From Microbacterium aerolatum (GTDB taxonomy: Bacteria > Actinomycetota > Actinomycetes > Actinomycetales > Microbacteriaceae): 64,000 nt of DNA. Below, piece after piece: positions 44,336 to 62,695 of the stretch. Location of the stretch: positions 1 to 64,000 of the forward strand of contig NZ_BJUW01000006.1 of the NCBI RefSeq assembly GCF_007988825.1, in the 5' to 3' direction. Position 1 is the first letter of the stretch. Each line of letters starts with the position of its first letter. Position numbers and translations under genes: made by a program. The notes beneath the pieces are model-generated. The model had not been told where the DNA came from. It searched no databases and saw only the letters and a list, made by a program, of their open reading frames with translations.

Positions 44336-44848
44336 TCAGCGAGTTTCCGGTAGCGGGAGTGTGACGCGCATCTCGTCGAAGACGTCGTTCGTTTCATAGA
44401 CCTCGCCGAAAACCGCGGTGCCGGATTCGGTCAGCTTCGGCTGTCGGATCACGAGCTGCTGATACGTGCTGTTGCGAGAAACTTCAACGCCATCGTGTTG
44501 GACTATGAGTGACAAGCGGTCGCCGAAATCTCCGTCGGCGACCGTCAACTCGACGCTACCGGCGCTCATATGCAACCACGGATCGCTGATGCAGACGTAG
44601 AGCATTCCCATGTGTCCGCCAAACTCGACCCGCCCGCGAAACTGAACCACGCCTGTGTGACTCGCCAGGTCAAACCGGCTGATGTCAGCAAGTGAGAACT
44701 GGAACTCGCCGGTGGTCGATTCGTCTGCGCTGTCGGAGAGCTTCCGTGTGCCGTCGCGCAACGCAGTGACATAGTCGATGAGCGATTTTTTGATCCCCCA
44801 GCGCAGGTGAAACGCGGGCGCCTGCATTCGCGACCCGTGCGTCATCAT
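44336..44848 (-). CDS. HtaA-domain protein without a signal peptide
   Basis: The 170-residue protein is essentially one HtaA domain: LRWGIKKSLIDYVTALRDG, then FQFSLADISRFDLASHTGVVQFRGRVEFGGHMGMLYVCISDPWLHM. HtaA domains are known from secreted or wall-bound haem-binding proteins of Corynebacterium. Here there is no signal peptide or membrane anchor, so it is likely cytoplasmic. It overlaps the LysR gene by 4 nt (ATGA at 44845-44848) and lies beside the P450 fusion, so a substrate- or haem-related role in that pathway is possible but unproven. Confidence 0.75.
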   Translation of the reverse strand: MMTHGSRMQAPAFHLRWGIKKSLIDYVTALRDGTRKLSDSADESTTGEFQFSLADISRFDLASHTGVVQFRGRVEFGGHMGMLYVCISDPWLHMSAGSVELTVADGDFGDRLSLIVQHDGVEVSRNSTYQQLVIRQPKLTESGTAVFGEVYETNDVFDEMRVTLPLPETR

Positions 44849-45801
44849 TCGCTCTCCAACGTCGAAGCATCAGCAAGAGTCGGCCACGCGACACGCTTGG
44901 CGAAGTCGATCAGCGCACGCACGCGTTGTGGCGGTTCGAGCTCGACGGACCAGATCACATCAACGGCGACCGGTTCCACGGGAGGGGAGATGTTCTTCAT
45001 GATTACGGGCAGCCCTTCATAGCTTGCGGGGTTCACCGGGCGGTGCATGAGTATGCCGTATCCGAGCCCACGGCCGACGAGTGTGCGCACTGCTTCGTAG
45101 CTTGCGGTGCGGTGACGTACTCGTGGCGCTATTCCGCGTGAGGTGAACAGATTTAGGGTGTTCTCACTTGAGGGCGGGATGTCGAGCAGGATCAGATCGT
45201 CATTGATCATCTCCTCCAGTCGGATCGATTCACGATGGGCAAGTGGGTGATCGGCAGCCAGAAGAATGTGTTGCGGTAGCGCGTACAGATGCTCGCGAAA
45301 CGGATGCCCGGGAACAAGCGCGTCGTAGATGAAGGCGGCATCGATCTCCCCTGCCGCGAGACGCTCGTCGAGTCGTTCGTGGGTGATCTCGAGAATCACC
45401 AGGTCGATCTTGGGATGGCGCTCCTCAAATCCGCGCAGCAGGTGGGGCAAGACAGTCGGCACCAGGGTCGGATAGCAGCCGATCGTGATCGGGCCGACCA
45501 ATTCGCCCGGTTCCGCCTTTATCGCCATCCGCAGTTCACGAGCGCTGCGCAGCAGATGGCGAGCGTCGGCGACGATGCGTTCCCCGGCAGAGGTGAGTGT
45601 GAGACCGTGGGCCTTGCGCCGCACGGCGAGCTTGACGTCAAGGCTGCGTTCCAATTCGGTGATCGCATCTGAGAGCGCAGAAGAGGACACGTGCAGATGT
45701 CGGGATGCCGATGCGATCGTTCCCGCGTCGGCAGCGGCGATCAGATAAGACAGTTGGCGCAGCGTGAACTCCGGTACGACGTCCTCGTGAAAATTCGGAA
45801 T
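44845..45801 (-). CDS. LysR family transcriptional regulator (non-standard start)
   Basis: The protein has the LysR winged helix (FTLRQLSYLIAAADAGTIASASRHLHVSSSALSDAITELERSL) and the periplasmic-binding-like effector domain (VGPITIGCYPTLVPTVLPHLLRGFEERHPKIDLVI). The conserved helix-turn-helix extends upstream of the first ordinary start (GTG at 45690). Between the upstream in-frame stop and that GTG there is no ATG, GTG or TTG. An ATT at 45801 behind GGAAGGA is the best candidate start; this end is inferred. It is divergent from the P450 fusion, its probable target. Confidence 0.8.
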   Translation of the reverse strand: MPNFHEDVVPEFTLRQLSYLIAAADAGTIASASRHLHVSSSALSDAITELERSLDVKLAVRRKAHGLTLTSAGERIVADARHLLRSARELRMAIKAEPGELVGPITIGCYPTLVPTVLPHLLRGFEERHPKIDLVILEITHERLDERLAAGEIDAAFIYDALVPGHPFREHLYALPQHILLAADHPLAHRESIRLEEMINDDLILLDIPPSSENTLNLFTSRGIAPRVRHRTASYEAVRTLVGRGLGYGILMHRPVNPASYEGLPVIMKNISPPVEPVAVDVIWSVELEPPQRVRALIDFAKRVAWPTLADASTLESE

Positions 45802-45908
45802 AACCGTTGTCCTTCCACTAACTTGTGAACTTTTGCCAGCTTAGGATCTGGCGCAGAGTGGAGCAAGGCCCTTACGTCATGGGGCTGTTCGCACAAAGGA
45901 GTCGAATC

Positions 45909-48900
45909 ATGATCGATGCACGCGTTGAGAGCGCCGGTACTCCCGCCCCGGTCGCGGACTGGGTCACAATCGCTGATCTCTATCGGGATCCGTTTCCGAT
46001 CTACGACCGACTACGCGCCGAAGGCGGCGTGCACTGGGTGCCCGCGGTGGGGCGCTACTTGATCACCTCTTACGACGCGGTGCACACGACGGAGTTCGAC
46101 CAGGAGACCTTCTCTGCCAATGAAGAGGGCTCTCTGCAGATCCGGGCGATGGGTCATTCGATGCTGCGCCGCGATGATCCGGAACACTACGCCGAGCGAA
46201 AGGCGTGGCAACCGGTTCTGCGCCCCGGCGTGGTCAAGCGGACCTGGACCTCAGTTTTTCAACGCAACGCGAATCGCTATCTCGATGAGCTCATCGAGAA
46301 GGGACCGGGCGCCGATCTCATCTGGGACTTCGCCGCCCCGTACGCCGCGGAGAACCTCCGCGAGATCCTCGGTTTTCACAACGCCACACAACAGGATCTG
46401 CAGCGCTGGTCGCAGACGATGATCTCGGCGACGGGTAATTATGCTGACGACCCCGATGTCTGGGCAGAGGGAAAAAGATCATTCGACGAAGTCGACACCG
46501 CGCTCGATGAGATGCTCAAGTGGCATCTCGCCCATCCTGACCATTCGCTCATCTCAACCCTGCTGCGTATCCCGGATTACCAGATGCCGATCGAGAAGAT
46601 TCGAGCGAACATCAAGATGACCATCGGCGGAGGGCTGAATGAGCCCAGGGATGCGCTTGGCGTTGCCGCCTGGGCCCTGCTGGAACACCCTGAACAGCGT
46701 CGTTCCGTGGAGCAGGACCCATCGTTGTGGCCAACGGTCTTCGATGAGGCCATCCGTTGGATCGCTCCCATCGGTCTATATTCACGACAGGTGACCAGAG
46801 ACACCGTGCTTGCCGGTCGCGAGTTGCCTGCCGGCGCGAAGCTGGGGATCTGTATTCTTTCGGCCAACCGCGATGAGAATGTTTGGGCGGATGCGGCAGC
46901 GTTCGACCTACGTCGTGAAGTGAAGCCGCATCTTTCCTTCAGTAAGGGCGTGCACGTGTGTCTGGGTGCCTGGGTGGCCAAGGCGGAAGTCGCCACCGTG
47001 GGTCTTCCCGCACTGTTCAGCCGCTTGCGTGGTCTTGATCTGATACCGCAGCGACCGGCAGAGATCGGCGGATGGGTGTTCCGCGGAATGCTGAGCATGC
47101 CGATCACCTGGTCGGAGGCAGAGACAGCCCACGACGGATCCGAGGTCTTGTCGAGAGTTTCAGGCGCGGCTACCGTCTTGTCGGGGGCCGGGGAATCGAC
47201 GAGCCCCGCACCGACAGTAGCGATCGTCGGTGCGGGGCCGGCCGGTTGCTTCACCGCTCAGGCAGTGCGCCGACTCATGCCCGATGCGCAGATCGATGTC
47301 TTCGACAGGTTGCCGGTGCCCTACGGCCTTGTGCGATTCGGTGTTGCTGCTGACCATCAGGGCACGAAGTCGGTCACTCGGCAGTTCGATCGACTGTTCA
47401 CCCGTGAGAATGTGCGATTCCATGGGAATGTCACTATCGGCACAGACCTTGAACTGGACGTGCTTCGCGAAACGCATGATGCGGTGGTCCTGTCGACGGG
47501 ACTTCGCGAAGATGCGGAGTTGAGCATTCCGGGCGCGGCGGCTGCGGGGCTGATGGGAGCGGGACGAGTTACGCGTGTCCTCAACGGACATCCGGATGAG
47601 ACTGATGAGGTGCGATCGTTGGGTGCAGATGTGGTCGTCGTTGGCCACGGCAACGTCGCAGTCGATGTGGTTCGCCTCCTCGTTGCCGACCACAACGCGT
47701 TCGACGGCAGCGACATCGACGATGCTGTGCGCGAGCGGATGGTGAAGGATCTGCGTGTCGTGCATATTGTGGGCAGGTCGTCGCCCGCGTCGGCGAAGTT
47801 CGACCCGGTGATGGTCCGAGAGCTCGCGGCCCTTTCGGGCGTTGAGCACGTCGTGCATGGGCTCGAAGATCTAGAGACCCCCGCGGGCAAGGATGCCCGC
47901 GTAGACGCGATTCGTGACCTCGGAGCGCGTGCGGAACCTGAACCGCGGGTCCGGGTGCGGTGGTGGTTCGGGTTGACTCCGGCTGCCGTGCGGGAGGAGG
48001 GCGGGTCTGTGCAGTCGGTGCAGTTCTCCAACCGGTCAGGTCAGAGCGTGACACTTCGAGCGGACAGCGTAATCACCGCGGTGGGTTTCACGGCAGGCGA
48101 TGACACTCCGGTGGCGGCAGGTGCACACGACGATGGTCGGATCATGCCGGGCCTTTACGCCGCGGGTTGGTTGCGCAGAGGACCACGGGGAACGATTCCT
48201 GATCAGCGCAACGACGCACGCGAGCTTGCCCGGCTGCTGCTGGACGACATCACCAGCGGTGCCGTGACCATGAACCGACCAGGACGCGACGCTTTGCCGA
48301 GCGTGCCCGGTGTTGTCGATTTCGACGGCTGGCGCCGCATTGATCTGCGCGAGACGATGGGAGCGGCACCGGGGCGAGTGCGTGCCAAGTTGCGCACGCA
48401 CTCGGAGCTTCTGGTGACAGCCGCAGACCTCACCCTCGTGCTCAACGATTCTGTATCCGACATCGATCTCACGTCGTCGGTGTTGGCCGTGCCCATCACG
48501 ATCGCCTACGGCACCGAGTCGGGAGGTGCCGAGCTCGTCGCCGAAGACCTGGGTCGCCGTTTCGGAGAGCGGGCGGATGTCAAGATCGCGGATCTGGCGG
48601 AGATCGGTCCTGAAGACATCGACAGTTCGCGGATGCTGGTCGTTGTGTGCTCGACCTATGGCGACGGCGAGTTGCCCACCGGAGTGCGGCCTCTGCTCGA
48701 TGCACTGCGCACCGAGCGACCGAACCTGAATGCGCTCACCTTCGCTGTATTTGGCATGGGAGATCGCAGCTACGCCAAGACGTACTCGCGCGGCAGCGAG
48801 TTGTTGGCGGAGGCTCTGTCAGATCTCGGAGCGATGCGCGTCGGTGAATACGGGCGTCATGATGCGGGTGGTGCGATCGATGCGGTTGAGGCCGCTGCCG

Positions 48901-48959
48901 AATGGATCGAGGGGGTCGTGGCTGAGCTGGCCACACGTACCCAGGCTCTCACCCGCTAG
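45909..48959 (+). CDS. Self-contained P450 monooxygenase: P450 - adrenodoxin-reductase-like - flavodoxin fusion
   Basis: ATG 45909 follows AAAGGAGTCG and encodes 1016 residues. Residues 1-400 are a P450: E280-x-x-R283, haem loop FSKGVHVCLG with C351, and an I-helix GGLNEP (N244, E245) in place of the Asp-Thr pair. Residues about 436-860 are an FprA/adrenodoxin-reductase-like domain: FAD loop G441-A-G-P-A-G446, PVPYGLVRFGVAADHQ, and NAD(P) loop G579-H-G-N. Residues 864-1016 are a flavodoxin: YGTESGGAE (867-875), STYGDGE (from 915), FGMGDRSY (from 948). Electrons could pass NAD(P)H to FAD to FMN to haem in one chain. The nearest known parts are XplA (flavodoxin-P450) with its separate reductase XplB, and GcoA (CYP255). 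The substrate is unknown. Confidence 0.93.
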   Translation: MIDARVESAGTPAPVADWVTIADLYRDPFPIYDRLRAEGGVHWVPAVGRYLITSYDAVHTTEFDQETFSANEEGSLQIRAMGHSMLRRDDPEHYAERKAWQPVLRPGVVKRTWTSVFQRNANRYLDELIEKGPGADLIWDFAAPYAAENLREILGFHNATQQDLQRWSQTMISATGNYADDPDVWAEGKRSFDEVDTALDEMLKWHLAHPDHSLISTLLRIPDYQMPIEKIRANIKMTIGGGLNEPRDALGVAAWALLEHPEQRRSVEQDPSLWPTVFDEAIRWIAPIGLYSRQVTRDTVLAGRELPAGAKLGICILSANRDENVWADAAAFDLRREVKPHLSFSKGVHVCLGAWVAKAEVATVGLPALFSRLRGLDLIPQRPAEIGGWVFRGMLSMPITWSEAETAHDGSEVLSRVSGAATVLSGAGESTSPAPTVAIVGAGPAGCFTAQAVRRLMPDAQIDVFDRLPVPYGLVRFGVAADHQGTKSVTRQFDRLFTRENVRFHGNVTIGTDLELDVLRETHDAVVLSTGLREDAELSIPGAAAAGLMGAGRVTRVLNGHPDETDEVRSLGADVVVVGHGNVAVDVVRLLVADHNAFDGSDIDDAVRERMVKDLRVVHIVGRSSPASAKFDPVMVRELAALSGVEHVVHGLEDLETPAGKDARVDAIRDLGARAEPEPRVRVRWWFGLTPAAVREEGGSVQSVQFSNRSGQSVTLRADSVITAVGFTAGDDTPVAAGAHDDGRIMPGLYAAGWLRRGPRGTIPDQRNDARELARLLLDDITSGAVTMNRPGRDALPSVPGVVDFDGWRRIDLRETMGAAPGRVRAKLRTHSELLVTAADLTLVLNDSVSDIDLTSSVLAVPITIAYGTESGGAELVAEDLGRRFGERADVKIADLAEIGPEDIDSSRMLVVVCSTYGDGELPTGVRPLLDALRTERPNLNALTFAVFGMGDRSYAKTYSRGSELLAEALSDLGAMRVGEYGRHDAGGAIDAVEAAAEWIEGVVAELATRTQALTR

Positions 48960-48974
48960 TCGCAGCACGCGTGC

Positions 48975-50444
48975 TCACTCTTGCGGGTCTCCTCGTCGCT
49001 GACGCAGATCTACGATCGCAACGCACAACGCCGTACACAATCCGGCGATGGCGACCATGAGCGCGCCGACGAATGCGTCGTCGTAGCGCTGTTCGCGATC
49101 CGAGGATCTCGCGTCGTGCAGGATTGCGAAGTAGATTGACGTTGCCAGGGCGACGCCGACAGCGTTTCCGATGCGCTGGCCGACCTGGGTTACGGATCCA
49201 GCTACGCCTGCCTGGTTGATGGGAACGTCGCTGAGGGTGAGAGTGAGATTGGGCGCGATCACCAATCCACTGCCGATTCCCGAGATGAAGAGTGTGGCAC
49301 CTAATCCCCAGGGAATGGTGTCGGTGGGAAGGAAACTCACAGCCACAATCGATGACACGAATCCGACGCCGACGACGCAGAGCCCGAAGACCACCACTGC
49401 TCGGCCGTACGCGGCAACCAGGCGCCCGCTCACCCAGGCGGTAACGGTAGCGGATGCGGCAAAAGGTACTGCCACGATTCCTGCCCAAAGAGCCGTCAGC
49501 CCCAAGCCATCCTGCAGATAGAGCATGGCCAGCAGGAAGACGGCGGGCAGAACGGCCAGATATGAGGTCGCCACGAGCAGGCCGTTGCGAAATCCCGTGC
49601 TTCGAAACAGTTCAAGATCGACGGCGGGTGATCGTCCTGCGCTCTTGTAATGTCGTTCCCAGAGCACGAAGGCTACGCCAGCGATAGCGGCGAGACCGAG
49701 CCACATCCAGCGCCACGGATTGTCGCTGGATGCACCTGTCGTCTGGACCAGTGGCAGCATCAGGGCGAGTGTGCTGATGGCGAGCAGGGTGATGCCGGTG
49801 ATGTCGAGGCTGACGGGAAGGCGTTGCAGTCGGTCGCTGCGCGGCAGCAGTCGCAGCGCCAGCAGTATCGCAACTGCTCCCACAGGAACGTTCATCCAGA
49901 ACAGTAGGCGCCAGCCATCGGTGGGCGTTCCAACCTCGACGAGAAGCCCGCCCAGCGCCGGGCCTGCCGCAGTGGCGATACCGGTCATCGCGCCAAAAAT
50001 GCCGAGCGCTTTACCCCGTTCGGTGCCCTGGAACTGGTGCTGGATGATACCGAGCACCTGTGGAGGAAGGAGTCCCCCGGCGAAGCCCTGTAGAACCCGC
50101 GCGAGCACGAGCATTTGCGCATCCGAGGCGAGGGCGCAGAAGATGCTGGTTGCGGTGAACGCGGCAAGTCCGATGACGAACATCAGCTTGCGGGAATGGA
50201 TGTCTCCCAGACGCCCGGCCGGTACGAGAGCGAGACCGTACGCGAGTGCATACGCGGCGACGATCAGCTGCAGCGCGGCGGCATCGGCATCGAGTGAATG
50301 CTCGATTGAAGGCAGCCCCACGTTCACTTTCGACAGATCGAGAACTGTCAGAATCGCGGCAGCGACGCACACCGCGAAGATCCGCCACCGTCCATCATCC
50401 GGGCGATCTGGTCGGCCATCTCGAGAGCTGTGCACGTGCAACAC
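48975..50444 (-). CDS. MFS transporter, DHA2 (EmrB/QacA) type
   Basis: The 489-residue protein has about 14 transmembrane helices and drug:H+ antiporter motifs (LVPAGRLGDIHSRKLMF; VLARVLQGFAGGLLPPQVLGII; GAMTGIATAAGPALGGLLVE; WRLLFWMNVPVG). It probably exports the island's substrate, a product or a toxic analogue. It is convergent with the P450 fusion (15-bp gap) and divergent from the solute-binding gene; an operator-like palindrome (50450-50463) abuts its GTG start. Confidence 0.9.
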   Translation of the reverse strand: MLHVHSSRDGRPDRPDDGRWRIFAVCVAAAILTVLDLSKVNVGLPSIEHSLDADAAALQLIVAAYALAYGLALVPAGRLGDIHSRKLMFVIGLAAFTATSIFCALASDAQMLVLARVLQGFAGGLLPPQVLGIIQHQFQGTERGKALGIFGAMTGIATAAGPALGGLLVEVGTPTDGWRLLFWMNVPVGAVAILLALRLLPRSDRLQRLPVSLDITGITLLAISTLALMLPLVQTTGASSDNPWRWMWLGLAAIAGVAFVLWERHYKSAGRSPAVDLELFRSTGFRNGLLVATSYLAVLPAVFLLAMLYLQDGLGLTALWAGIVAVPFAASATVTAWVSGRLVAAYGRAVVVFGLCVVGVGFVSSIVAVSFLPTDTIPWGLGATLFISGIGSGLVIAPNLTLTLSDVPINQAGVAGSVTQVGQRIGNAVGVALATSIYFAILHDARSSDREQRYDDAFVGALMVAIAGLCTALCVAIVDLRQRRGDPQE

Positions 50445-50449
50445 TCTAA

Positions 50450-50463
50450 TAGTTAGAAAACTA
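50450..50463 (-). promoter_or_regulatory. Operator-like palindrome at the MFS start
   Basis: TAGTT (50450-50454) and AACTA (50459-50463) flank AGAA, forming a palindrome containing TTAGA. It overlaps the presumed -10 region of the MFS gene and shares TTAGA half-sites with the operators at 50536 and 57393. Confidence 0.5.
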
Positions 50464-50508
50464 GCTGTTGTCCAAATCGAGTGTTCGGACGACGTGTTCG
50501 ATTCGTGT

Positions 50509-50547
50509 TTGACATGCGGTCCGAAACGTAGTTAGTTAGAAGTCTAA
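50509..50547 (+). promoter_or_regulatory. Promoter and MarR-type operator of the first solute-binding gene
   Basis: TTGACA (50509-50514), 17 bp, then TTAGTT (50532-50537) overlapping TTAGA-N2-TCTAA (50536-50547). The same layout with the same spacing occurs at 57366-57404, so the module is duplicated. Confidence 0.75.
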
Positions 50548-50592
50548 GCGATCACGCAGAGCTGCGATGAAGCTGCGCGAATGGAGAAGTCA

Positions 50593-52131
50593 GTGAAGAC
50601 TAAGTATGCAAAAGTCGCCGCCGTCGCCACGGCTGCAGTAGTCAGCCTCGTCATCTCGGGCTGCTCGCCGAGTTCCGGGGGTTCACCGGGAGACGAGACC
50701 GCGCCCACCGAGCTGATCTACGGTCTCCAGCAGTCACCCGTCGGCGGTTTCGACCCGGGTAACTGGGCGTACACCACATACGCTCCGATCGAACAGGCCG
50801 CATACGAAACTCTCCTTCATGCGAACACCGACGGTGGTTTCGACCCCGCACTCGCCACCGAGTGGGGATGGGAGAGTCCTGAGCTGTTCACCCTTTCGCT
50901 GCGCGAGGGTGCCACCTTCACCGACGGCGAGGTGTTCGACGCCGAGGCTGTCAAGACAAACCTCGAGCATTACAAGGTGGCGCAGGGTCGTTCGGCGGCG
51001 CAGCTTCAGCCGATCGAATCCGTCGAAGTTGTCGGCGAGTACGAGATCGCCATCCACCTGGCTGAACCGCAGCCGGATATGCCGCTCATTCTGTCGCAGA
51101 ACATGGGGATGATGATCAGTCCCGCTGCCATCGCATCTCCGGATCAGCTCCTCACCGAACCTGTGGGAGCGGGCCCGTACATCCTCGATGCTGCAAGGTC
51201 AGTGACAGACGATACGTACACGTTCACCAAGAACCCGCACTACTGGAATGCAGACGCGATCGAGTTCGACACGATGGTGTTCAAGATCTTCTCGGACGGT
51301 CAGGCGGCTTTCAACGCTCTGCAGTCCGGTCAGGTGGATCTGACTTTCGGCACCTCGGAGAACCTCGAAGCGGCCACTGGGACCGGGCTCAGCATCGATG
51401 AGGCACCGGGAACGCTCGTGAACATCCAGATCGTGGATATGGCCGGAGACGAAGTTCCGGCACTCGGCGATGTGCGTGTGCGCCAGGCCCTGAACTACGC
51501 GATTGACCGCGACGCGATCGTCGAGAGCCTGCAGCCGGGACGCGCGACGCCGCAGGTATGGCACTCCGCGGGTGAGGCGTACGATCCGTCGCTGGAGGAC
51601 TATTACCCCTATGACCCCGAAGAGGCCAAGCGGCTGTTGAAAGAGGCCGGGTATGAAGATGGATTCACCTTCAAGATGAACAACCACCCGCTCATGCAAA
51701 CCGTAGCGCAGGCCATTGCCGGCTACCTGGCTGATGTGGGTGTGACGCTGGAGATCATCGTGCAGCCAACGGTGGCTGAGTTCGTGTCAGATGGGATCGC
51801 AGGGACATACCCGACGATCCTCGCACCGAACGTTTCGCAGAGTGCGTCGATCGATATCCAGAACCTCCTGCTTCCCGATGGCGGAAAGAACTCGCGCGGC
51901 AGTGAGGACCCCGAGATCACGCGTCTCTATGACGTAGCCGCCTCGATGTCGCCGGAAGATCGTGCGAGCGAATATCACAAGATCGCTCAGATCGTCCTTG
52001 ATGACGCCTGGTTCGTCGGTATCGCCCAGGCCACGAGCTACACCTTCTACAACGGCGACGAGGTCGAGGGATTGCAGACTCCGGTCGGTCACATCATCCC
52101 GATGATCTACGGCCTCGGGCCGGTCAATTAA
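50593..52131 (+). CDS. ABC transporter solute-binding lipoprotein, family 5 (SBP1)
   Basis: The 512-residue protein starts best at GTG 50593, which has GGAGAAG just upstream; an ATG four codons earlier is the alternative. It has a lipoprotein signal (VVSLVISGC, Cys 24) and family-5 signatures (YETLLHANTDGGFDPALATEWGW, SLREGATFTDGEVFDAEAVKTNLEHY, VRQALNYAIDRDAIVE). Family 5 binds peptides, nickel, opines and other small molecules. A dehydrogenase, aldehyde dehydrogenase and DUF3237 follow; the permeases are at 59-62 kb. It is paralogous to SBP2. Confidence 0.92.
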   Translation: MKTKYAKVAAVATAAVVSLVISGCSPSSGGSPGDETAPTELIYGLQQSPVGGFDPGNWAYTTYAPIEQAAYETLLHANTDGGFDPALATEWGWESPELFTLSLREGATFTDGEVFDAEAVKTNLEHYKVAQGRSAAQLQPIESVEVVGEYEIAIHLAEPQPDMPLILSQNMGMMISPAAIASPDQLLTEPVGAGPYILDAARSVTDDTYTFTKNPHYWNADAIEFDTMVFKIFSDGQAAFNALQSGQVDLTFGTSENLEAATGTGLSIDEAPGTLVNIQIVDMAGDEVPALGDVRVRQALNYAIDRDAIVESLQPGRATPQVWHSAGEAYDPSLEDYYPYDPEEAKRLLKEAGYEDGFTFKMNNHPLMQTVAQAIAGYLADVGVTLEIIVQPTVAEFVSDGIAGTYPTILAPNVSQSASIDIQNLLLPDGGKNSRGSEDPEITRLYDVAASMSPEDRASEYHKIAQIVLDDAWFVGIAQATSYTFYNGDEVEGLQTPVGHIIPMIYGLGPVN

Positions 52132-52203
52132 TCTCCGCCCGAGAACAGATTCGAATCAGCGGTCACGCTGGTTGCACCGTTCAGAACGAGAAAGAGGATT
52201 GAA

Positions 52204-53106
52204 ATGAGAATTGCGTGGATCGGACTCGGCAACATGGGCAGCCCCATGTCGGCCAACTTGGCCGCCGCCGGTCATGAGGTCGTCGGGTTCGACGTCAGCG
52301 AGGCGGCGATGAGCGCTGCCGCGGAGAGAGGTGTGGCTCGCACCGCTTCGGTGGCGGATGCTGTTCGCGACGCCGACATCATCTTCACGATGCTGCCCAA
52401 CGGCAAGCTCGTGCTCGACGTTGCCGATGGTCCGGAGGGTGTGCTTGCCAACGCTGGCAAGGATGCGATCTTCATCGACAGCTCCACAATCGATGTCGAA
52501 ACCACCACCCGGCTCAGCGATCTGAGCAAGGATCGAGGTTTGCGATTCGTCGACGCGCCTGTCTCCGGCGGCGTCCCCGGCGCGGTCGCCGGAAGCCTGA
52601 CTTTCATGATCGGCGGAGCGGAGGAAGATATCGCGAGCATTCGCCCCATCATCGAAGTGCTGGCAGGGCGCATCTTCCACATCGGCCCCGTGGGCCAGGG
52701 GCAGGCGGCGAAGATCGTCAACAACACCATCGCCGGCATGAATCTCGCCGCCATGTGCGAGGGCGCGGTGCTCGCCGAGCGTCTGGGAATCAACGCCAAA
52801 ACGTTCCACGATCTGGCCACCGTCTCCACTGGCGACAGCTGGGCACTTCGGATGACGTATCCGATCGCCGGTGTCGTTGAAGGCGCTGCCGTGAACAACG
52901 ACTTCAAGCCGGGTTTCGCCGCGAGCCTTATGGCGAAAGACGTCGGCCTCGGTGTGACGGCGGCAAGCGCCGTCGGGCTCGATGTTCCATTGGCTGAAGT
53001 CGCACTTGCCCAGCTGAATGAACTGCTCACTCGCGGAATGGGGCATCTGGACTGCTCTGCACTCGTCAAAGTCGTCGAAGGAAGCATTGACGCCGAATCT
53101 GCGTGA
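52204..53106 (+). CDS. NAD(P)-dependent oxidoreductase, 3-hydroxyisobutyrate dehydrogenase family
   Basis: The 300-residue protein has the Rossmann motif GLGNMGSPMSANLAAAGHEV (residues about 7-26), FVDAPVSGGVPGAVAGSLTFMIGG and the catalytic K170 in KIVNNTIAGMN. These enzymes oxidise a beta-hydroxyacid to a semialdehyde or ketone. It precedes an aldehyde dehydrogenase, which suggests the two act in series (alcohol to aldehyde to acid). AGAGGATTGAA lies before the ATG. Confidence 0.92.
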   Translation: MRIAWIGLGNMGSPMSANLAAAGHEVVGFDVSEAAMSAAAERGVARTASVADAVRDADIIFTMLPNGKLVLDVADGPEGVLANAGKDAIFIDSSTIDVETTTRLSDLSKDRGLRFVDAPVSGGVPGAVAGSLTFMIGGAEEDIASIRPIIEVLAGRIFHIGPVGQGQAAKIVNNTIAGMNLAAMCEGAVLAERLGINAKTFHDLATVSTGDSWALRMTYPIAGVVEGAAVNNDFKPGFAASLMAKDVGLGVTAASAVGLDVPLAEVALAQLNELLTRGMGHLDCSALVKVVEGSIDAESA

Positions 53107-53148
53107 CCCACTCCCCAACTTCCCCCTTATTGAAAAGGAGATCCACTT

Positions 53149-54630
53149 ATGAGCCATGCACCTTTGCCCTTTGAGGGCACTGTCCCTGACATCCCCTTCC
53201 TGATCGGCGGTTCGCGTACCGGCAGTGACTCGGACGAGTGGATCGAAGTGCACAGCCCTGGCCATAAGGGAACTGTGCTCGCGCGTGTTCCACGAGGCAA
53301 TGCCGTTGACGCTGACCGTGCGGTTGCCGCCGCGCGTGCGGCATTCCCCGAGTGGAGCGGTCGTCACTTCAACGATCGTTCCCGCCCGCTGCTGGCCATT
53401 GCGGACGCACTGCAGGCTGCGGCTGAGGAGCTGGCCGTGCTCGTGTCGTGGGAGACCGGAAATGCACTGCGCACCCAGTCTCGCGGTGAAGCGATGGCGC
53501 TGGCGGCGATCACCCGCTATTACGCCGGTGTCGCCGGTGAATTCAAGGGGTTGACCCTTCCTGCAGGTGCCGGTCAGCTCAGCTACACCCAGCGCGAGCC
53601 GCTCGGTGTGGTGGCCGCGATCATTCCGTGGAACTCGCCGCTGATCATCGCGATCGTCAAGATCGTCTCGGCAATCGTGGCGGGCAACACCCTCGTGCTC
53701 AAGACGGCCGAGGATGCACCGCTTGCTGTGTTGCGTCTTGGTGAGATCGTCGCTGAGCACCTGCCTGCCGGAGTGGTCAACGTCGTCAGCGGCTACGGCG
53801 CCGAGATCGGTGAGGCACTCGTGCAGCACCCGGGTGTGGCGAAGGTGTCGTTCACAGGGTCCTCGGCTGTCGGTACGCACATTGCGGAAGCGGCCGGAAG
53901 TCGCCTGGCGCACTACTCGCTTGAGCTCGGCGGCAAGAGCCCGAACATTGTCTTCCCGGATGCCGTGAACGATGAGACTCTCAACGGCATCCTCGGAGCG
54001 ATGCGCTTCACCCGTCAGGGCCAGAGCTGCACTGCGGGTTCGCGACTCCTTGTGCACGAGTCTGTGTACGACGATGTAATGAACGGACTCGTCGACAGGG
54101 TGAGCGCACTGAAGGTCGGCGATCCTCTCGATGAGGCGACGGACATGGGCGCGATCATCAATAAGAAGCAGTTCGATCGCGTTCTCTCCTATATGGATGA
54201 GGGCAACGCGCAGAAGGGCATCCAAGTGCCGCTGCGCGGTGAGGCGGTTTCGCCGGGAGGGCAGGAGGGCTTCTACCTCTCCCCGACGATCTTCGGCGCA
54301 GTCGACAACTCTTGGCGCATCGCGCAGGAGGAGATCTTCGGCCCTGTGCTGGTGGCTATTCCGTGGAAGGACCGCGAGGATGCGATCAGACTTGCCAACG
54401 AAACTCACTACGGACTCGCCGCCTACATTTGGACGCAGAACCTGGATGACGCAGTTCAGACAGCCAACCGTATCGATGCGGGATGGATCCAGGTCAATCA
54501 GGGTGGTGGCCAGATGCTCGGCCAGACCTATGGCGGATACAAGAACAGCGGCATCGGCCGGGAGAACTCGCTTGAGGGCACTATCGAAGCGTTCACTCAG
54601 GTGAAGCAGATCAACATCAAGCTCGGTTGA
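53149..54630 (+). CDS. Aldehyde dehydrogenase family protein
   Basis: The 493-residue protein has the catalytic pair E259 (LELGGKSPN) and C294 (QGQSCTAGSR), the NAD site (IIPWNSPL; FTGSSAVGTHI) and QEEIFGPVL. It oxidises an aldehyde to the acid. AAAAGGAGATC lies upstream of the ATG. It is 42 bp after the dehydrogenase, so the operon is SBP1-dehydrogenase-ALDH-DUF3237. Confidence 0.95.
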   Translation: MSHAPLPFEGTVPDIPFLIGGSRTGSDSDEWIEVHSPGHKGTVLARVPRGNAVDADRAVAAARAAFPEWSGRHFNDRSRPLLAIADALQAAAEELAVLVSWETGNALRTQSRGEAMALAAITRYYAGVAGEFKGLTLPAGAGQLSYTQREPLGVVAAIIPWNSPLIIAIVKIVSAIVAGNTLVLKTAEDAPLAVLRLGEIVAEHLPAGVVNVVSGYGAEIGEALVQHPGVAKVSFTGSSAVGTHIAEAAGSRLAHYSLELGGKSPNIVFPDAVNDETLNGILGAMRFTRQGQSCTAGSRLLVHESVYDDVMNGLVDRVSALKVGDPLDEATDMGAIINKKQFDRVLSYMDEGNAQKGIQVPLRGEAVSPGGQEGFYLSPTIFGAVDNSWRIAQEEIFGPVLVAIPWKDREDAIRLANETHYGLAAYIWTQNLDDAVQTANRIDAGWIQVNQGGGQMLGQTYGGYKNSGIGRENSLEGTIEAFTQVKQINIKLG

Positions 54631-54668
54631 TCGAGCTTTCTCACGTCAACGCGAACACAAAGGAAATC

Positions 54669-55169
54669 ATGAGCGAAGTATCTTCATTGGCCGCAGATAT
54701 GCCATCGCCCACGCTCGACCACGTCTTAACGATCACGCTCCAGTTCGACAACCGCTTCAAGACTCCGATGATGTTGGGTGGAGCCCAGCACGGCTGGATC
54801 AGCGTCACCGGCGGCAGCTTCGAAGGGCCATTGCTTCGCGGCAAGGTCCTTCCGGGAGGCGGCGACCCATCGTTGACGCGCCCCGATGGTCTTGTCGTGG
54901 TGGGGGCGCGCTACATCCTGCAGGAAGATGACGGCACGATGATCTCGCTGTACAACCCTGGAATTCGTGACGGTTCTCCCCAGGTCAAGGCCGGAGTCGA
55001 CCCGGCACTGGTCATCGACACCGAGGCGTTCGATCTTCGCACGTCACCGGTGTTCGATACGCCTGCCGGCAAGCATGACTGGCTGACGCGCAGCACGTTC
55101 GTCGGCGTCGGACGAAAGCTGCCCGATGGCAACGGAAACCGCATTCACTATTTCAAGGTGAACGCGTAA
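54669..55169 (+). CDS. DUF3237 domain-containing protein
   Basis: The 166-residue protein has the DUF3237 pattern: LTITLQFDNRF, LGGAQHGWISVTGGSFEGPLLRGKVLPGGGDPSLTRPDG, and FVGVGRKLPDGNGNRIHYFKV. The fold is a beta-barrel of unknown activity that often appears in catabolic clusters. ATG 54669 follows AAAGGAAATC; an earlier in-frame start would overlap the ALDH gene. It is last in its operon. Confidence 0.85.
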   Translation: MSEVSSLAADMPSPTLDHVLTITLQFDNRFKTPMMLGGAQHGWISVTGGSFEGPLLRGKVLPGGGDPSLTRPDGLVVVGARYILQEDDGTMISLYNPGIRDGSPQVKAGVDPALVIDTEAFDLRTSPVFDTPAGKHDWLTRSTFVGVGRKLPDGNGNRIHYFKVNA

Positions 55170-55189
55170 CAGAACCCGTTCACCTGCGA

Positions 55190-55216
55190 GGCCCCGCGGC
55201 GCTGCGCCGCGTGGCC
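55190..55216. terminator. GC-rich hairpin between convergent operons
   Basis: CGCGGCG/CGCCGCG plus GGCC/GGCC (one mismatch between) around a 3-nt loop, 20 bp after the DUF3237 stop. There is no T-run. Confidence 0.5.
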
Positions 55217-55278
55217 CGCAGGCGATCACGGAGGGTAGCGAGCGCGCCAGCAGTGACCGGTCGGCGTTCTTCGACGCG

Positions 55279-56679
55279 TCAGCTGTCGGCGCGGAGTGCG
55301 ACCAGCAAAGAGTGGGCATCCGGTTCCTGTTCGAAGTTCATCACGAGATCCACAAACGCGGCGATGTCGCGCGGCGGATGCAGAGCAAGCTCTGCGCAGG
55401 CACGGAACTTGGCGATGAGCTCGGCGTCATCCATAGGGCGGGTCGAGCCGCCACGAGGTTCTTCGACATCGGCGCGAAGCACGGTGCCATCCGCAAGCGT
55501 GATTTTCACGCCGCCGTTCATCGCGGAGCGCATGTCCAATGAGCGATCCACACCCACGCGGATCCGTTCGGCGAGCCGAATGGTTTGCTCATCTGCCAGT
55601 GCCCACTCGTCGAACTGCTTGAGAGTAAGTTCGCCGCTACGCACCGTCGCAGCCAAAACGAACGGGATCGAGAATTTCGCGGCGCTTGCCGTTGTCGGCC
55701 GTGATTTCTCTGCGGTCGGTTCGCACAGGCTCTGGTAGAACGGGCTGACGCGAATCTCGATGTCGGAGATCTCGTCGGCAGAGAACAGCGGGTCCTGCAT
55801 GATCTGCAGCGCACAGTCCACGAAGGCATGGGTTCCGCGACATGATGGCCACGGCTTGAAGCTGACGGCGGTGTTCTCCCAGCGTGTCTCGAGATCACCG
55901 GTGAGTGCCGCGGCATCAACGGATCCGCCCCCGTACAGCCCATAGATGCCGTACGGGCCGTCGAAGACTCGGGAGAATCCAATGAGTCCATCTCTTGCCA
56001 GGGATGCCCCGACCACACCGGCGTGCGCATTGAACGCCTCTCGGATAGTGCGGTAGTCGCTGTCCGCCTGGTCTTTGGCGGCGGCAGAGCTTGTGGACTG
56101 GCTGAAGGCGAACGACAGGGCCTGCTCGACCTGTGCGCTCGTGGCGCCATAGACGCGTGAAGCGGTGGCCGCTGCGGCCAGCGAGTTCAGGATCGGGTGC
56201 AGAAACCATCCGTCGGTCTCGGAGTTGTTCGTGAAGCCAAGAGACACCCGGCACACGAGATTGGCCCCATGGGCGAGACTGGCGAGAAGCTCTCGTCCGG
56301 CGATCTTATCAATACGGTTCATGGCGGACAGCGCGGCAGGAATCGCTGCGGCATAGGGATGTACGATGGCCGCGTCATGGGTGTCTTCGAAATCCAGTGC
56401 GTGCGCGAGCGCACCGTTCACTGTGGCGGCCAGCGTCGGCGCGGTATCGAATCCGCAGCCGATGACGGGCGTTCCTCCACGCGTGTGTCCTTCACGAGCG
56501 AGCCCGATGAAGGGCTCCACCTGCCGTGCGAGGCTGCTGGCGGCGAGTGAGACACCTATGCCATCGAGCAGGCTGCGTTTCGCAGCATGGATGACGGCCG
56601 CGGGTGTATCAGCAGTGGGGAACTCTGCGACGTGTGACGAGAGACGCCGGGTGTGGCTGGCGGAGGAGCCGATTGTCAT
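55279..56679 (-). CDS. MmgE/PrpD family protein
   Basis: The 466-residue protein has the MmgE/PrpD layout: KRSLLDGIGVSLAASSL, GALAHALDFEDTHDAAIVHPYAAAIPAAL, SRVYGATSAQVEQAL, FKPWPSCRGTHAFVDCALQI. Members include 2-methylcitrate dehydratase, cis-aconitate decarboxylase and many uncharacterised lyases or isomerases. It overlaps the MarR gene by 4 nt (ATGA, 56676-56679), so both are made from one mRNA. The substrate is unknown. Confidence 0.9.
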   Translation of the reverse strand: MTIGSSASHTRRLSSHVAEFPTADTPAAVIHAAKRSLLDGIGVSLAASSLARQVEPFIGLAREGHTRGGTPVIGCGFDTAPTLAATVNGALAHALDFEDTHDAAIVHPYAAAIPAALSAMNRIDKIAGRELLASLAHGANLVCRVSLGFTNNSETDGWFLHPILNSLAAAATASRVYGATSAQVEQALSFAFSQSTSSAAAKDQADSDYRTIREAFNAHAGVVGASLARDGLIGFSRVFDGPYGIYGLYGGGSVDAAALTGDLETRWENTAVSFKPWPSCRGTHAFVDCALQIMQDPLFSADEISDIEIRVSPFYQSLCEPTAEKSRPTTASAAKFSIPFVLAATVRSGELTLKQFDEWALADEQTIRLAERIRVGVDRSLDMRSAMNGGVKITLADGTVLRADVEEPRGGSTRPMDDAELIAKFRACAELALHPPRDIAAFVDLVMNFEQEPDAHSLLVALRADS

Positions 56680-57278
56680 TGCGCATCGTCGGGCGTCGGT
56701 TGTGTTCGCCGCGCACGCGGTGCCTTGGGCATGATCGGCGTGATGGGGGCCGGCTCCGCCTGCGGGGCTTCCGCGTTGAGAACGCGGTGCAGGAGAGAGG
56801 CGAGATGCTTCTTTTCTTCTTGAGTGAACAGGGTTGCCCATTCGGCAGCGCGTTCATTGTTGCGGATGAAGAGCTCGGCGACTGCCTGTTCGCCCTTTGG
56901 GGTGAGCGAGAGCGTGATGCCTCGGCCGTCGTTCTCATTGCGCGTGCGAAGGATCATGCCGTAGCGCTCCAGCGTATTGAGCACGCTGGATGCGCTCGCC
57001 GAAGAGATGCTCGACAGTCGAGCGACTTGGCGAGGAGACGTCGTGCCAGCGGAGCGGATCACGAAAAGCACGCGGAATGACGCCCATGTCATCCCGGCCG
57101 GGCGGTGAACGTGATTCTCGAGATCCTGTTGGAGGCGGTTGCCGGCTCTCACCAGGGTGAGGCCGAACTCCATCGCTTCAAGATCGGCATCCGGCTGCAT
57201 TTCAACGCTCGCTTGACGCGTGAGTTCATCGAATGACTTGGCGTCAACGGCATCATTTTCAGTTTCCTGAGCGGTCAT
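56676..57278 (-). CDS. MarR family transcriptional regulator
   Basis: The 200-residue regulator has the MarR winged helix: RPAGMTWASFRVLFVIRSAGTTSPRQVARLSSISSASASSVLNTLERYGMILRTRNENDGRGITLSLTPKGE. It has a long N-terminal and a Pro/Arg-rich C-terminal extension. It is divergent from the SBP2-ABC operon and precedes MmgE/PrpD. The TTAGA-N2-TCTA sites at 57393 and 50536 are its probable operators. Confidence 0.93.
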   Translation of the reverse strand: MTAQETENDAVDAKSFDELTRQASVEMQPDADLEAMEFGLTLVRAGNRLQQDLENHVHRPAGMTWASFRVLFVIRSAGTTSPRQVARLSSISSASASSVLNTLERYGMILRTRNENDGRGITLSLTPKGEQAVAELFIRNNERAAEWATLFTQEEKKHLASLLHRVLNAEAPQAEPAPITPIMPKAPRARRTQPTPDDAQ

Positions 57279-57365
57279 CTCTCACACATTAGGTCGAAGG
57301 TGAACGAGCGAAGCGCTTCGGCGCGCGGTGCCGCAGAGTCGCGGATTCCGGGAACCGAATCGTCC

Positions 57366-57404
57366 TTGACAGACAACGTAACATGTAGTTGGTTAGACTT
57401 CTAG
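57366..57404 (+). promoter_or_regulatory. Promoter and MarR-type operator of the second solute-binding gene
   Basis: TTGACA (57366-57371), 17 bp, TTGGTT (57389-57394), overlapping TTAGA-N2-TCTAG (57393-57404). It shares GTAGTT-R-GTTAGA-N2-TCTA with the site at 50529-50546. Confidence 0.75.
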
Positions 57405-57453
57405 TAACGTGGAAGACGTTCTCCCGACGCACCTTTTCCCGATCGGAGCTTCA

Positions 57454-58983
57454 ATGATGAAACTGCACGCTCGCATGAAAATATTCGCCCTCGCCGTGGC
57501 GGCAAGTCTCGCCCTGACGGCGTGTGGAGGCGGCACAACACCGAACGCAGACGAGAACCAATCTCACTCACTCACGATCGCTGTCGACCTGACGCCTCCC
57601 GGCGGATGGGATCCGGCAGGCTGGGCCTGGGGCAAGTACAGCCAGGTACAGCAGGCTGCATACGCCAGCCTTCTGAATGCGACCGCGGACGGAAAGTTTG
57701 TCCCCGGGCTGGCCACCGAGTGGGGGTGGGACGACAACCGCACGTTCAGCATGACGCTGCGTGAAGGCGTGACATTCACCGACGGAGCGGAGTTCAATGC
57801 TGAAGCGGTCAAAGCGAACCTCGAGTACTTCAAAGCATCGGACGGCCGATCTGCAACACTACTGGCGACGCTGGATGATATCGAGGTCGTGAGCGACACC
57901 CAGCTCGTACTGCACTGGTCAGCGCCGATGCCCGATCTGCAGTTTATGTTCAGCCAGCACATCGGAATGATGGTCAGCCCGGAAGCACTCGCCACACCGG
58001 AGATCCTCAAGAGCGAGCCGGTGGGAGCCGGCCCCTACGCTTACATCGTCTCGGAATCCATCGCCGAGAACATCTTCACATTCGAAAAGAATGAGGATTA
58101 CTGGGACGCAGATTCGGTGCCGTATGACCGAATGGTCTTCCGGATCATCGAGGACGCGCAGGCTGCGTACAGCGCGGTGCAGTCCGGCGAGGTCGATGTG
58201 AGCTGGGGCAGTGCTGAGAACCTCGAGGCTGCGGAAGCCGCTGGACTGAACGTCTTCGAAGGCGGTGGACCGACGGTCGCGATGTACTTCGTCGACCAAC
58301 AGGGCGCCGATGTGCCTGCACTCGGTAACGTTCTCGTCCGCCGTGCTCTGAACTACGCGATCGACCGTGAGGCGATCGCCGAGAACCTCATGCCCGGTCG
58401 CCCGACGAGTCAGGTCTTCGTGCCCGACACCGAGGCGTACGATCCCGAACTCGACGACTATTACACATACGACCCGCAGAAGGCGAAGGACCTGCTCGCC
58501 GAAGCCGGGTACGGCGATGGTCTTGAGCTCACTGCCACAACATTCCCCGGACTGGCGAACGTCGTCTCGGCGATGGCCGGATACTTCGCCGACGTCGGAG
58601 TGACGTTGACGATCGACACCATGCCGTTCGCTGAGTTCGTTCAGACATCGATCGCAGGCAATAACACCCTCACGGTCACGACGCTCTCGAGCCAGAGCAC
58701 CGTGCCGGATGTCGAGGGGCTGCTGTTGCCCAACGGTTCGCGCAATGCGCGAGGAGCGTCGGATCCGAAGATCAACGAGCTCTACGCCGAGGCGCTGGAA
58801 CAGCCCGAGGACGAGCGGCGCAAAACCTTCCAGGAGATCTCTAAGATCAGCGTTGAGAACGCATGGATGGTCGTCGTGCTCCAGGAGATCGGCTTCACGT
58901 TCTACAACGACGAAGTGACGAATCTGGAACGCCCAGCAGGGCATATGAAGCCCTCCATCTTCAGCATGCAACCCACAGGCTGA
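57454..58983 (+). CDS. ABC transporter solute-binding lipoprotein, family 5 (SBP2)
   Basis: The 509-residue protein has a lipoprotein signal (LALTAC, Cys 24) and the same family-5 signatures as SBP1 (QQAAYASLLNATADGKFVPGLATEWGW; TLREGVTFTDGAEFNAEAVKANLEYFKASDGRS; VRRALNYAIDREAIAENLMPGR). It is first in an operon with the permease, permease-ATPase and ATPase genes. ATG 57454 follows CGGAG; upstream in-frame starts overlap the promoter. Confidence 0.92.
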   Translation: MMKLHARMKIFALAVAASLALTACGGGTTPNADENQSHSLTIAVDLTPPGGWDPAGWAWGKYSQVQQAAYASLLNATADGKFVPGLATEWGWDDNRTFSMTLREGVTFTDGAEFNAEAVKANLEYFKASDGRSATLLATLDDIEVVSDTQLVLHWSAPMPDLQFMFSQHIGMMVSPEALATPEILKSEPVGAGPYAYIVSESIAENIFTFEKNEDYWDADSVPYDRMVFRIIEDAQAAYSAVQSGEVDVSWGSAENLEAAEAAGLNVFEGGGPTVAMYFVDQQGADVPALGNVLVRRALNYAIDREAIAENLMPGRPTSQVFVPDTEAYDPELDDYYTYDPQKAKDLLAEAGYGDGLELTATTFPGLANVVSAMAGYFADVGVTLTIDTMPFAEFVQTSIAGNNTLTVTTLSSQSTVPDVEGLLLPNGSRNARGASDPKINELYAEALEQPEDERRKTFQEISKISVENAWMVVVLQEIGFTFYNDEVTNLERPAGHMKPSIFSMQPTG

Positions 58984-58989
58984 AGTCAC

Positions 58990-59023
58990 GGCGCGCACTC
59001 CGGCATACACCGGAGTGCGCGCC
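58990..59023 (+). terminator. Intercistronic hairpin between SBP2 and the permease genes
   Basis: A perfect 14-bp stem (58990-59003 with 59010-59023, 6-nt loop) follows the SBP2 stop by 6 bp and has no strong T-run. Such hairpins stabilise the upstream message or lower read-through, giving more binding protein than permease. Confidence 0.7.
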
Positions 59024-59071
59024 CTTCCATCGACGTTTCCCGCTCCGCGAGAACCAGAAAGATACCCCCGT

Positions 59072-60010
59072 ATGTTGAAAGTGATAGGGCGACGATTGGC
59101 AGGCGCGATCCCGCTGCTCTTCGTGATCGCGACCCTGACATTCTTGCTGGTGCAGTTCATCCCAGGAGACCCGGCCGTAAGCATTCTCGGTCCAGACGCG
59201 AGTCCCGAGCAGTACGAGCGTGTTCGTGAAGATCTGGGCCTGAACGCACCGGTGCACGTGCAGTACTTCAACTGGATGATCGCCGCAGTTCAAGGCGACC
59301 TCGGAAACTCGATCCGCACAGGCCTCCCTGTGCTCGAGACGATCCTCAGCAGACTTCCCGTGACGCTGTCGCTGGCGTTGCTGTCGATCGCCGTCACCCT
59401 CGTCGTGGGCGGAACGTTCGGACTCATCAGCGCGCTGAAGGGCGGCTGGTTGGGCAAGTCCGCACAGGTCGTCTCCGTGCTTGGCGCATCGATCCCCAAC
59501 TTCTGGCTCGGTATTCTGCTGGTGCTCGTGTTCAGCCTGACGTTTCGCCTCGTTCCGGCGACGGGATATGTGCCCTTCGAGGTTTCACCGTGGGGATGGG
59601 CGCACTCGTTGATCCTTCCGGTGGCAGCGATCGCGCTCGCCGGAGTGGCGGCGATTGCGCGACAGACCAGGGCGTCGATGCTCACGGTTCTCGGACAGGA
59701 CAACATCCGAACGCTGCTGGCTTCGGGGACCCCACGGCGAACGATCGTGTTCAAGCATGCACTGCGAAATGCTGCGATTCCGGTAGTGACCACGCTGAGC
59801 TTCCAGTTCATCCACGTCGTCGGCGGCGCGGTCGTGATCGAGCAGGTGTTCGCGCTTCCCGGTCTCGGCCAGTACATGATCGCCGCGATCAGCGGGCGCG
59901 ATATCCCTGTCGTACAGGGCATCGTTCTCGTCACCGCCATCATGATCATCATCGTCAACCTCGTCGTTGATCTCATCAACGCGTGGCTCAACCCGAAGGT
60001 GCGAATGTAA
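59072..60010 (+). CDS. ABC transporter permease (DppB/OppB type)
   Basis: The 312-residue protein has six transmembrane helices and the N-terminal VQFIPGDPAV signature and EAA loop (ARQTRASMLTVLGQDNIRTLLASGTPRRTIVFKHALRNAAIPVVT). It forms the import channel with the next gene product. The stop TAA shares one base with the next ATG. ATG 59072 is chosen because MLKVIGRRL begins the family homology. Confidence 0.94.
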   Translation: MLKVIGRRLAGAIPLLFVIATLTFLLVQFIPGDPAVSILGPDASPEQYERVREDLGLNAPVHVQYFNWMIAAVQGDLGNSIRTGLPVLETILSRLPVTLSLALLSIAVTLVVGGTFGLISALKGGWLGKSAQVVSVLGASIPNFWLGILLVLVFSLTFRLVPATGYVPFEVSPWGWAHSLILPVAAIALAGVAAIARQTRASMLTVLGQDNIRTLLASGTPRRTIVFKHALRNAAIPVVTTLSFQFIHVVGGAVVIEQVFALPGLGQYMIAAISGRDIPVVQGIVLVTAIMIIIVNLVVDLINAWLNPKVRM

Positions 60011-62683: not shown

Positions 62684-62695
62684 CTCACCTCACAC

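Follow-up and report, generated by a model that had tools for sequence, protein, structure and literature searches.

A cytochrome P450 of Microbacterium aerolatum joined in one chain to an adrenodoxin-reductase-like domain and a flavodoxin

A window of 64,000 nucleotides from Microbacterium aerolatum (contig NZ_BJUW01000006.1, positions 1 to 64,000) contains a gene whose product carries a cytochrome P450, an adrenodoxin-reductase/FprA-like FAD-NAD(P) domain (FdR) and an FMN flavodoxin (Fld), in this order, in a single chain. We consider it likely that this protein is a self-sufficient monooxygenase of the CYP1232A type, i.e. a class III system in fused form, which probably oxidises or O-demethylates phenylacetic acids. 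Self-sufficient P450s are prized because the majority of bacterial P450s depend on two additional proteins. The initial annotation of this DNA had proposed these domains, their order and their intact motifs, and this part of it stands. The present analysis adds that the fused genes form a family with one origin and that the P450 is close to CYP1232A24, whose structure is solved. It also refines the reading of the redox part, which resembles a known FdR and flavodoxin system in fused form, and finds that a second domain order exists elsewhere.

Domain layout and conservation of the fused protein

The layout in Table 1 is borne out by a frame free of stop codons, by the order of the Pfam matches and by comparison with the PDB. 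The families p450 (residues 276-362, 49.2 bits), Pyr_redox_2 (436-733, 29.4 bits) and Flavodoxin_1 (865-996, 76.5 bits) each exceeded their own cut-offs. No further Pfam family was found in the protein at E ≤ 0.001, and therefore neither an FNR-type FAD domain nor a 2Fe-2S domain was seen. In the PDB sequence comparison, entry 6g71 matched residues 12-404 (E 7e-168) and the middle domain matched adrenodoxin reductase (1cjc) and FprA (1lqt; 437-835). The motifs that had been claimed for all three domains can be read in the sequence: ExxR (280-283) and FSKGVHVCLG with the haem ligand in the P450; GAGPAG (441-446), GHGNVAVD (579-586) and GWLRRGPRGTIP (753-764) in FdR; and GTESGGAE (868-875), CSTYGDGE (914-921) and FGMGDRSY (948-955) in the flavodoxin. 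An in-frame GTG at 45825, earlier than the ATG at 45909, sits 5' of the ribosome-binding site.

Table 1. Features of the fused gene and of the two genes on its 5' side.
Feature	Position	Strand	Basis and remarks
Whole fused gene	45909..48959	+	1016 residues and TAG; single open frame, homologues
Ribosome-binding site AAAGGAG	45895..45901	+	7 nt before ATG 45909
P450 domain, CYP1232A-like, haem Cys351	45909..47120	+	residues 1-404; Pfam, PDB, homologues
Linker 1, unconserved	47121..47210	+	residues 405-434; mean identity 18% (36 homologues), pn/ps 0.82-1.11 (7 comparisons)
FdR domain, adrenodoxin reductase/FprA/XplB-like, FAD and NAD(P) sites	47211..48422	+	residues 435-838; Pfam, PDB, homologues, tree
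Linker 2, unconserved	48423..48491	+	residues 839-861; mean identity 18%, pn/ps 0.84-1.61
Flavodoxin (Fld) domain, FMN site	48492..48956	+	residues 862-1016; Pfam, homologues
Divergent LysR-type regulator	44845..45840	-	Pfam; no canonical start codon evident, frame remains open as far as about 45840
HtaA/CR-domain protein, haem-binding type	44336..44848	-	PF04213 (Pfam), model, profile searches

An AlphaFold2 model built with 37 homologues had a mean predicted local distance difference test (pLDDT) score of 81.9 and a predicted template modelling (pTM) score of 0.58. With this model Foldseek returned CYP1232A24 (6g71, 61% identity) first and then FprA and adrenodoxin reductase, followed by GcoA and, lower down, by CYP125, TbtJ1, SyoA and others. 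By the rule of P450 nomenclature, a P450 that shares more than 55% identity with a named member belongs to the same subfamily; at 61% identity to 6g71 the fused P450 domain can, by sequence, be placed in CYP1232A.

We aligned the window protein with 36 homologues. All 37 sequences share the haem-ligand Cys, ExxR, GxGPxG and GNVAxD without exception, and the C-terminal motif of FdR and the flavodoxin loops show a few substitutions (e.g. Gly868 is present in 29 sequences and Ala in 8). Identity to the window protein averages 76% for the P450, the best conserved of the three parts, 56% for FdR, 58% for Fld and 18% for each linker; the linkers also differ in length among the homologues. Nei-Gojobori comparisons with 7 of the 36 homologues, in which synonymous sites are near saturation, gave nonsynonymous distances (dN) well below the synonymous ones (dS) in each domain, and ratios of nonsynonymous to synonymous proportions (pn/ps) of 0.82 to 1.61 in the linkers. 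This pattern indicates that the domains are under constraint and the linkers free.

The conservation of the P450 above the other two parts, together with a haem motif kept in 37/37, makes it quite improbable that the FdR-Fld part is a general reductase, which also or mainly serves another P450 and is fused as a device for co-expression. Such a role would fit a locus of Arthrobacter terricola (L059, 5809-11975), a run of a LysR gene, a second, 43% CYP1232-like P450 gene, a separate flavodoxin gene, an HtaA-like gene and the fused gene; the second P450 and the separate flavodoxin thus lie upstream of the fused gene, and no separate FdR was found in the 20 kb stretch. It would also fit the two further P450 matches in the window's own genome. 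A redox part that supplies its own P450 remains our preferred interpretation.

Distribution and origin of the fusion

The initial annotation had suggested a search for proteins that cover all three domains in this order. Full-length single-frame relatives occur in the same genus (71% identity; 2 of 58 genomes, own genome counted) and in another genus (65% identity; 2 of 394, own genome counted). A scan of genome contigs returned 68 loci; its query was two short N-terminal P450 peptides, and therefore fusions with other P450 families were beyond its reach. The loci comprise 42 with a P450-FdR-Fld gene or its remains, two end fragments (L106, L107) and 24 P450s without FdR or Fld in the chain. 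The fused gene is intact in one frame at 36 of the 42, including the 71% and 65% relatives (L040, L042); two genes are ended by the contig (L066, L069), three are frame-broken (L052, L070, L104) and one has an internal deletion (L096). Among the intact homologues 34 are from Micrococcales, namely Microbacterium, Agrococcus (L049 and L056 are both Agrococcus baldri), Leucobacter, Gulosibacter, Zimmermannella, Labedella, Subtercola, Pseudoglutamicibacter, Arthrobacter terricola, Citricoccus, Enteractinococcus and a Micrococcales bacterium. The other two, Larsenimonas and Halomonas, are Halomonadaceae.

An error of sequencing or assembly that joined separate genes, which the initial annotation had named as fatal to its reading, is refuted by these 36 other, independent loci. 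Nothing in the window speaks for it; the broken frames at L052, L070 and L104 show that errors or decay do happen, and the chance that they account for the fused gene is negligible. A remnant of the gene in Microbacterium testaceum (L096, 8001-9166; 88% in its best segment), which has lost a large internal part, retains LysR, HtaA and hpa neighbours.

A sample of 398 genomes from the window's family contained 20 with an FdR or FdR-Fld match within an open frame of at least 990 residues; the P450-FdR-Fld order was checked in three of these (G000, G421, G1042), and the match in G1158 contains a stop. One further genome of the sample (G849) has the other domain order. A plasmid-borne fused gene was considered and rejected: nine plasmid records cover at least 80% of the query at one place, and in the annotated ones the parts are separate features. 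Separate genes were present in each of the five records inspected: L029 and L033 carry P450, FdR and Fld as three distinct genes, L034 and L221 carry Fld-P450 with a distinct FdR gene, and for L030 the annotation lists separate genes. No relative was found on viral contigs in a scan limited to the two short N-terminal P450 peptides.

A tree of 80 P450 domains unites the frame-broken L052 and all 41 rows with the P450-FdR-Fld architecture in one clade (support 100/99), and unfused CYP1232-like P450s from Arthrobacter and others fall outside it. Three changes were counted for the label FUSED in this tree, two of which stem from the labels themselves: the XplA-like L034, whose branch is very long, had been marked as fused, and L052 as unfused. 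A tree of 47 FdR domains also unites the fused FdRs, represented by 11 rows picked from 37, in one clade (100/99). This clade sits in a subfamily of 31 rows (100/100) with XplB-like proteins and with FdRs adjoining separate flavodoxin genes; 16 FprA-type rows lie outside this flavodoxin-partnered subfamily. Since the fused proteins form one clade in each tree, the phylogenies indicate that the P450-FdR-Fld order arose by a single fusion. The two Halomonadaceae rows are nested inside the Micrococcales rows of the P450 tree, which suggests that the fused gene was transferred to the Halomonadaceae.

The opposite-order fusion, FdR-Fld-P450, is found in two genera (L036, 6763-9852, + strand; L184, 3781-6783, - strand) with 90% identity. 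As it forms a separate clade in the FdR tree, there were at least two independent fusions, with the domains arranged in opposite orders. Unfused forms also exist. Plasmids from Rhodococcus pyridinivorans and from Klebsiella pneumoniae carry separate P450, FdR and Fld genes close together; on the K. pneumoniae plasmid pM63-1 (L030), which is typed as conjugative, FdR, flavodoxin and P450 are three adjoining genes. On Microbacteriaceae chromosomes with unfused FdR and Fld genes, a P450 occurs in the stretch at L168, L169, L172-L174 and L178-L180 and was not seen within it at L170 and L171.

Relation to known P450 systems and proposed electron transfer

The closest solved relative, CYP1232A24 from Arthrobacter sp., is 61% identical to the fused P450 domain over residues 12-404; its solved chain, however, is a 405-residue P450 alone, and its partners are described as separate. 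The FdR and flavodoxin domains are 41-42% and 38% identical to a pair of proteins on Rhodococcus DN22 p5 and Gordonia pGKT2 (recorded as FAD-dependent oxidoreductase and cytochrome P450), which we take to be XplB and XplA, and the FdRs belong to the same subfamily. There the flavodoxin and the P450 form one chain and the reductase another, whereas here P450, FdR and Fld form one chain, and the P450 of XplA is distant from the fused P450 (32% over 106 residues). With a reductase within the chain and a C-terminal flavodoxin, the protein falls outside class VI (XplA).

Passages of the review PMC9687028 mention a proposal that two Arthrobacter P450s cluster with flavodoxin and flavodoxin reductase, and these named cluster partners are a further likeness to the CYP1232A24 system. 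Electron flow from an FAD reductase through an FMN flavodoxin to the P450, as in the class III system of P450cin and cindoxin (passages of PMC9687028 and PMC11173547), involves the components that the domains and motifs of the fused protein would provide. There, however, they are three separate proteins, and here one frame encodes them, as it does at 36 intact loci. P450 BM3 (CYP102, class VIII) shares with the fused protein the presence of haem, FAD and FMN in a single chain. Its reductase is of the diflavin, CPR type, with FMN followed by an FNR-type FAD domain, according to passages of PMC9687028; in the present protein the FAD domain is of the adrenodoxin-reductase type, the order is P450-FAD-FMN, and the only FAD-domain match is Pyr_redox_2, N-terminal to the flavodoxin. 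CYP116B (class VII) and the cyclohexanecarboxylate P450 of KU-64 are likewise self-sufficient chains, but use a [2Fe-2S] ferredoxin domain (passages of PMC9687028 and PMC11173547), for which the fused protein has no Pfam match at E ≤ 0.001. Engineered fusions of flavodoxin and flavodoxin reductase, as described in parts of PMC4503991 and PMC5575160, also have both in one chain and drive P450s; they are man-made from E. coli or Bacillus parts.

The distinctness from CYP102, CYP116B and XplA/XplB that the initial annotation had put forward thus holds by domain types and order. That it knew of no described enzyme with this order also agrees with our survey: no P450-FdR-Fld enzyme or published family was found in the open-access literature searched for this architecture and for CYP1232, CYP1232A24 was not found there by name, and the class lists in the parts of PMC11173547 and PMC9687028 consulted include no such architecture. 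The fused chain looks like a P450 of a type so far undescribed, with its entire electron supply built in, and we read it as a putative fused class III P450, convergent with CYP102. It represents a natural fusion with an adrenodoxin-reductase-type reductase, which has arisen more than once, and the family offers a reductase module beside a P450 with a solved close relative. It also offers a way to test how electron transfer depends on the order of the domains.

In the proposed mechanism NAD(P)H would reduce the FAD of the adrenodoxin-reductase-like domain, from which single electrons would go to the FMN in the C-terminal flavodoxin. Flexible linkers would let this flavodoxin travel between FdR and the proximal side of the haem domain, to which it would hand over the two electrons of the P450 cycle. 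The whole chain would correspond to a separate FdR, flavodoxin and P450 system (class III, cf. P450cin, XplA/XplB) that has been fused, and would be independent of partner proteins. The fused P450 BM3 is active as a dimer (passages of PMC9687028), and the model of the present protein shows no defined domain arrangement; both observations would fit electron transfer solely between the chains of a dimer, or a need for a further protein, which we consider unlikely. The path within one chain is the one that we favour.

Gene context, probable substrate and the HtaA-type neighbour

The neighbourhoods of 43 fused loci (the 42 and the window; 8 kb on each side where the contig allows) were compared with those of 23 P450-only loci; L101, which is too distant, and the fragments L106 and L107 were left out. 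HpaD relatives occur near 18 of the 43 fused loci, the damaged L096 and L104 included, and HpaE relatives near 19, against 0/23 P450-only loci in both cases; the loci are not independent, as many are from Agrococcus. Gene order and strand vary between locus groups, and Halomonadaceae also have hpa neighbours: in Larsenimonas (L055) HpaD and HpaE score above the curated cut-offs and HpaH just below. The window's genome has an hpaD above the cut-off on contig C9, with HpaE and HpaH relatives adjoining. At L062 a LigM/DesA O-demethylase-like protein, below the curated cut-offs, adjoins the fused gene. Klenk et al. 2019, on CYP1232A24, reportedly deals with papaverine metabolism, going by its title, and the enzyme is said to O-demethylate dimethoxyphenylacetate.

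Because of the hpa context, the 61% identity to CYP1232A24 and the LigM/DesA-like neighbour, our best guess for the reaction is O-demethylation or hydroxylation of a phenylacetate. Physiologically, the enzyme would most likely oxidise phenylacetic acids that bear methoxy or hydroxy groups (e.g. homovanillate), perhaps by O-demethylation, and so feed homoprotocatechuate cleavage. A self-sufficient monooxygenase with another reaction, either ring hydroxylation of 4-hydroxyphenylacetate or oxidation of another aromatic acid, is possible but somewhat doubtful. The proximity of hpaD at only 18/43 loci and the many genera in the clade would agree with it, and so would relatives of a metabolite/H+ symporter (which does not itself reach its family's curated cut-off) at 23/43 fused and 17/23 P450-only loci, which suggest only some organic acid. 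The identity to CYP1232A24, the structural matches that come next, which include the aromatic O-demethylases GcoA and SyoA (alongside e.g. CYP125 and TbtJ1), and hpa neighbours in several distinct gene orders, Halomonadaceae included, argue instead for the phenylacetates.

Several points weigh against a self-sufficient phenylacetate monooxygenase. No hpaD lies within 8 kb of 25/43 fused loci, the window's included (some contigs end sooner), and the hpaD of the window's genome is on a different contig from the fused gene. The P450-only relatives, whose domain make-up comes closest to that of the characterised enzyme, show hpa neighbours in 0/23 cases, and therefore gene context is an unsure guide. 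The pTM of the model (0.58) and its low pLDDT near the haem-ligand loop (341-350) mean that docking and arrangement of the domains are not fixed by it. In 37/37 sequences the I-helix reads GGGLNEPRD in place of the usual acid-Thr pair; the letters are identical in CYP1232A24. The second Arg of the FprA/adrenodoxin reductase motif GRRGP is Ser in 37/37, a change to GRS that may bear on coenzyme preference. A preference for NADH is no more than a possibility here, because RS also occurs in XplB-like proteins and several unfused FdRs.

A single-sequence search with the HtaA-type protein (Table 1) recovered the protein itself and matches at 30 further loci that hold the fused gene or fragments of it, and at no P450-only locus. 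A hidden Markov model (HMM) made from these 31 matched 34 of 45 fused loci (the 42, two fragments and the window) and 0/24 P450-only loci; L046, L047, L050, L053, L055, L058, L069, L070, L091, L095 and L106 gave no match. PF04213 was confirmed in 29/29 of the neighbours scanned, and a structure model of the window's protein (pLDDT 92.1) matches HtaA CR domains. Parts of PMC12494546 describe an axial Tyr in CR domains and, in HtaA, a helper His following a Gly. Tyr26, His79 and Tyr151 are kept in 31/31 sequences and the Gly preceding the His in 27/31; the mapping onto the domains covered in those parts of PMC12494546 is our own. With PF04213, the CR fold and a putative axial Tyr and helper His, the protein can be classed as an HtaA/CR-domain protein. 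No signal peptide was seen by eye. This apparently intracellular protein accompanies the fused P450 and some unfused P450 genes (L178-L184, L186); similar HtaA genes follow the unfused FdR-Fld-P450 operons at L178-L180 and the opposite-order fusion L184.

Of the 398 family genomes, 157 had an HtaA match of some kind at E ≤ 1e-10. The 14 best matches (E below 1e-39) are all within the 20 genomes that have an FdR or FdR-Fld match in a frame of at least 990 residues, 6 of which have no HtaA match of that strength. HtaA proteins as general P450 partners were rejected: a P450 lies in the stretch for only 7 of 33 further stand-alone matches, hand-picked for their short open frames from among the matches listed, against 8/8 HtaA loci chosen for a high score or a nearby FdR. 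The link between HtaA and P450 is therefore strong for fused and FdR-Fld-P450 loci and not general. The protein is a candidate haem carrier and may deliver haem, and its association with the fused P450 prompts the question of whether certain P450s are supplied by haem donors of their own. A bolder reading, which we hold to be less likely than not, is a new class of self-sufficient P450s: natural diflavin enzymes with an FAD module of the adrenodoxin/glutathione-reductase type, which would have evolved convergently with CYP102 through at least two independent fusions with opposite domain orders, would have reached Halomonadaceae by transfer, and would rely on a dedicated HtaA-like (CR-domain) protein inside the cell to deliver or hold haem for the P450.

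A LysR relative is present at 36/43 fused and 22/23 P450-only loci; as it is common to both, it belongs to the P450 and not to the fusion. The neighbours at 48975-57278 (MFS, SBP5, HIBADH, ALDH, DUF3237, MmgE/PrpD, MarR) were rejected as parts of the system, being not common to fused loci; the exceptions are generic ALDH matches and single weak ones of HIBADH in L046 and MmgE in L069. The block at 50581-63714, with peptide-type ABC transporter genes, a 3-hydroxyisobutyrate-type dehydrogenase, an aldehyde dehydrogenase, DUF3237, MmgE/PrpD and MarR, has the appearance of a catabolic cluster in its own right. In the LysR gene of the window the frame is open through the helix-turn-helix (45691-45840, - strand) with no ATG, GTG or TTG ahead of it, which points to either an unusual start codon or a damaged start.

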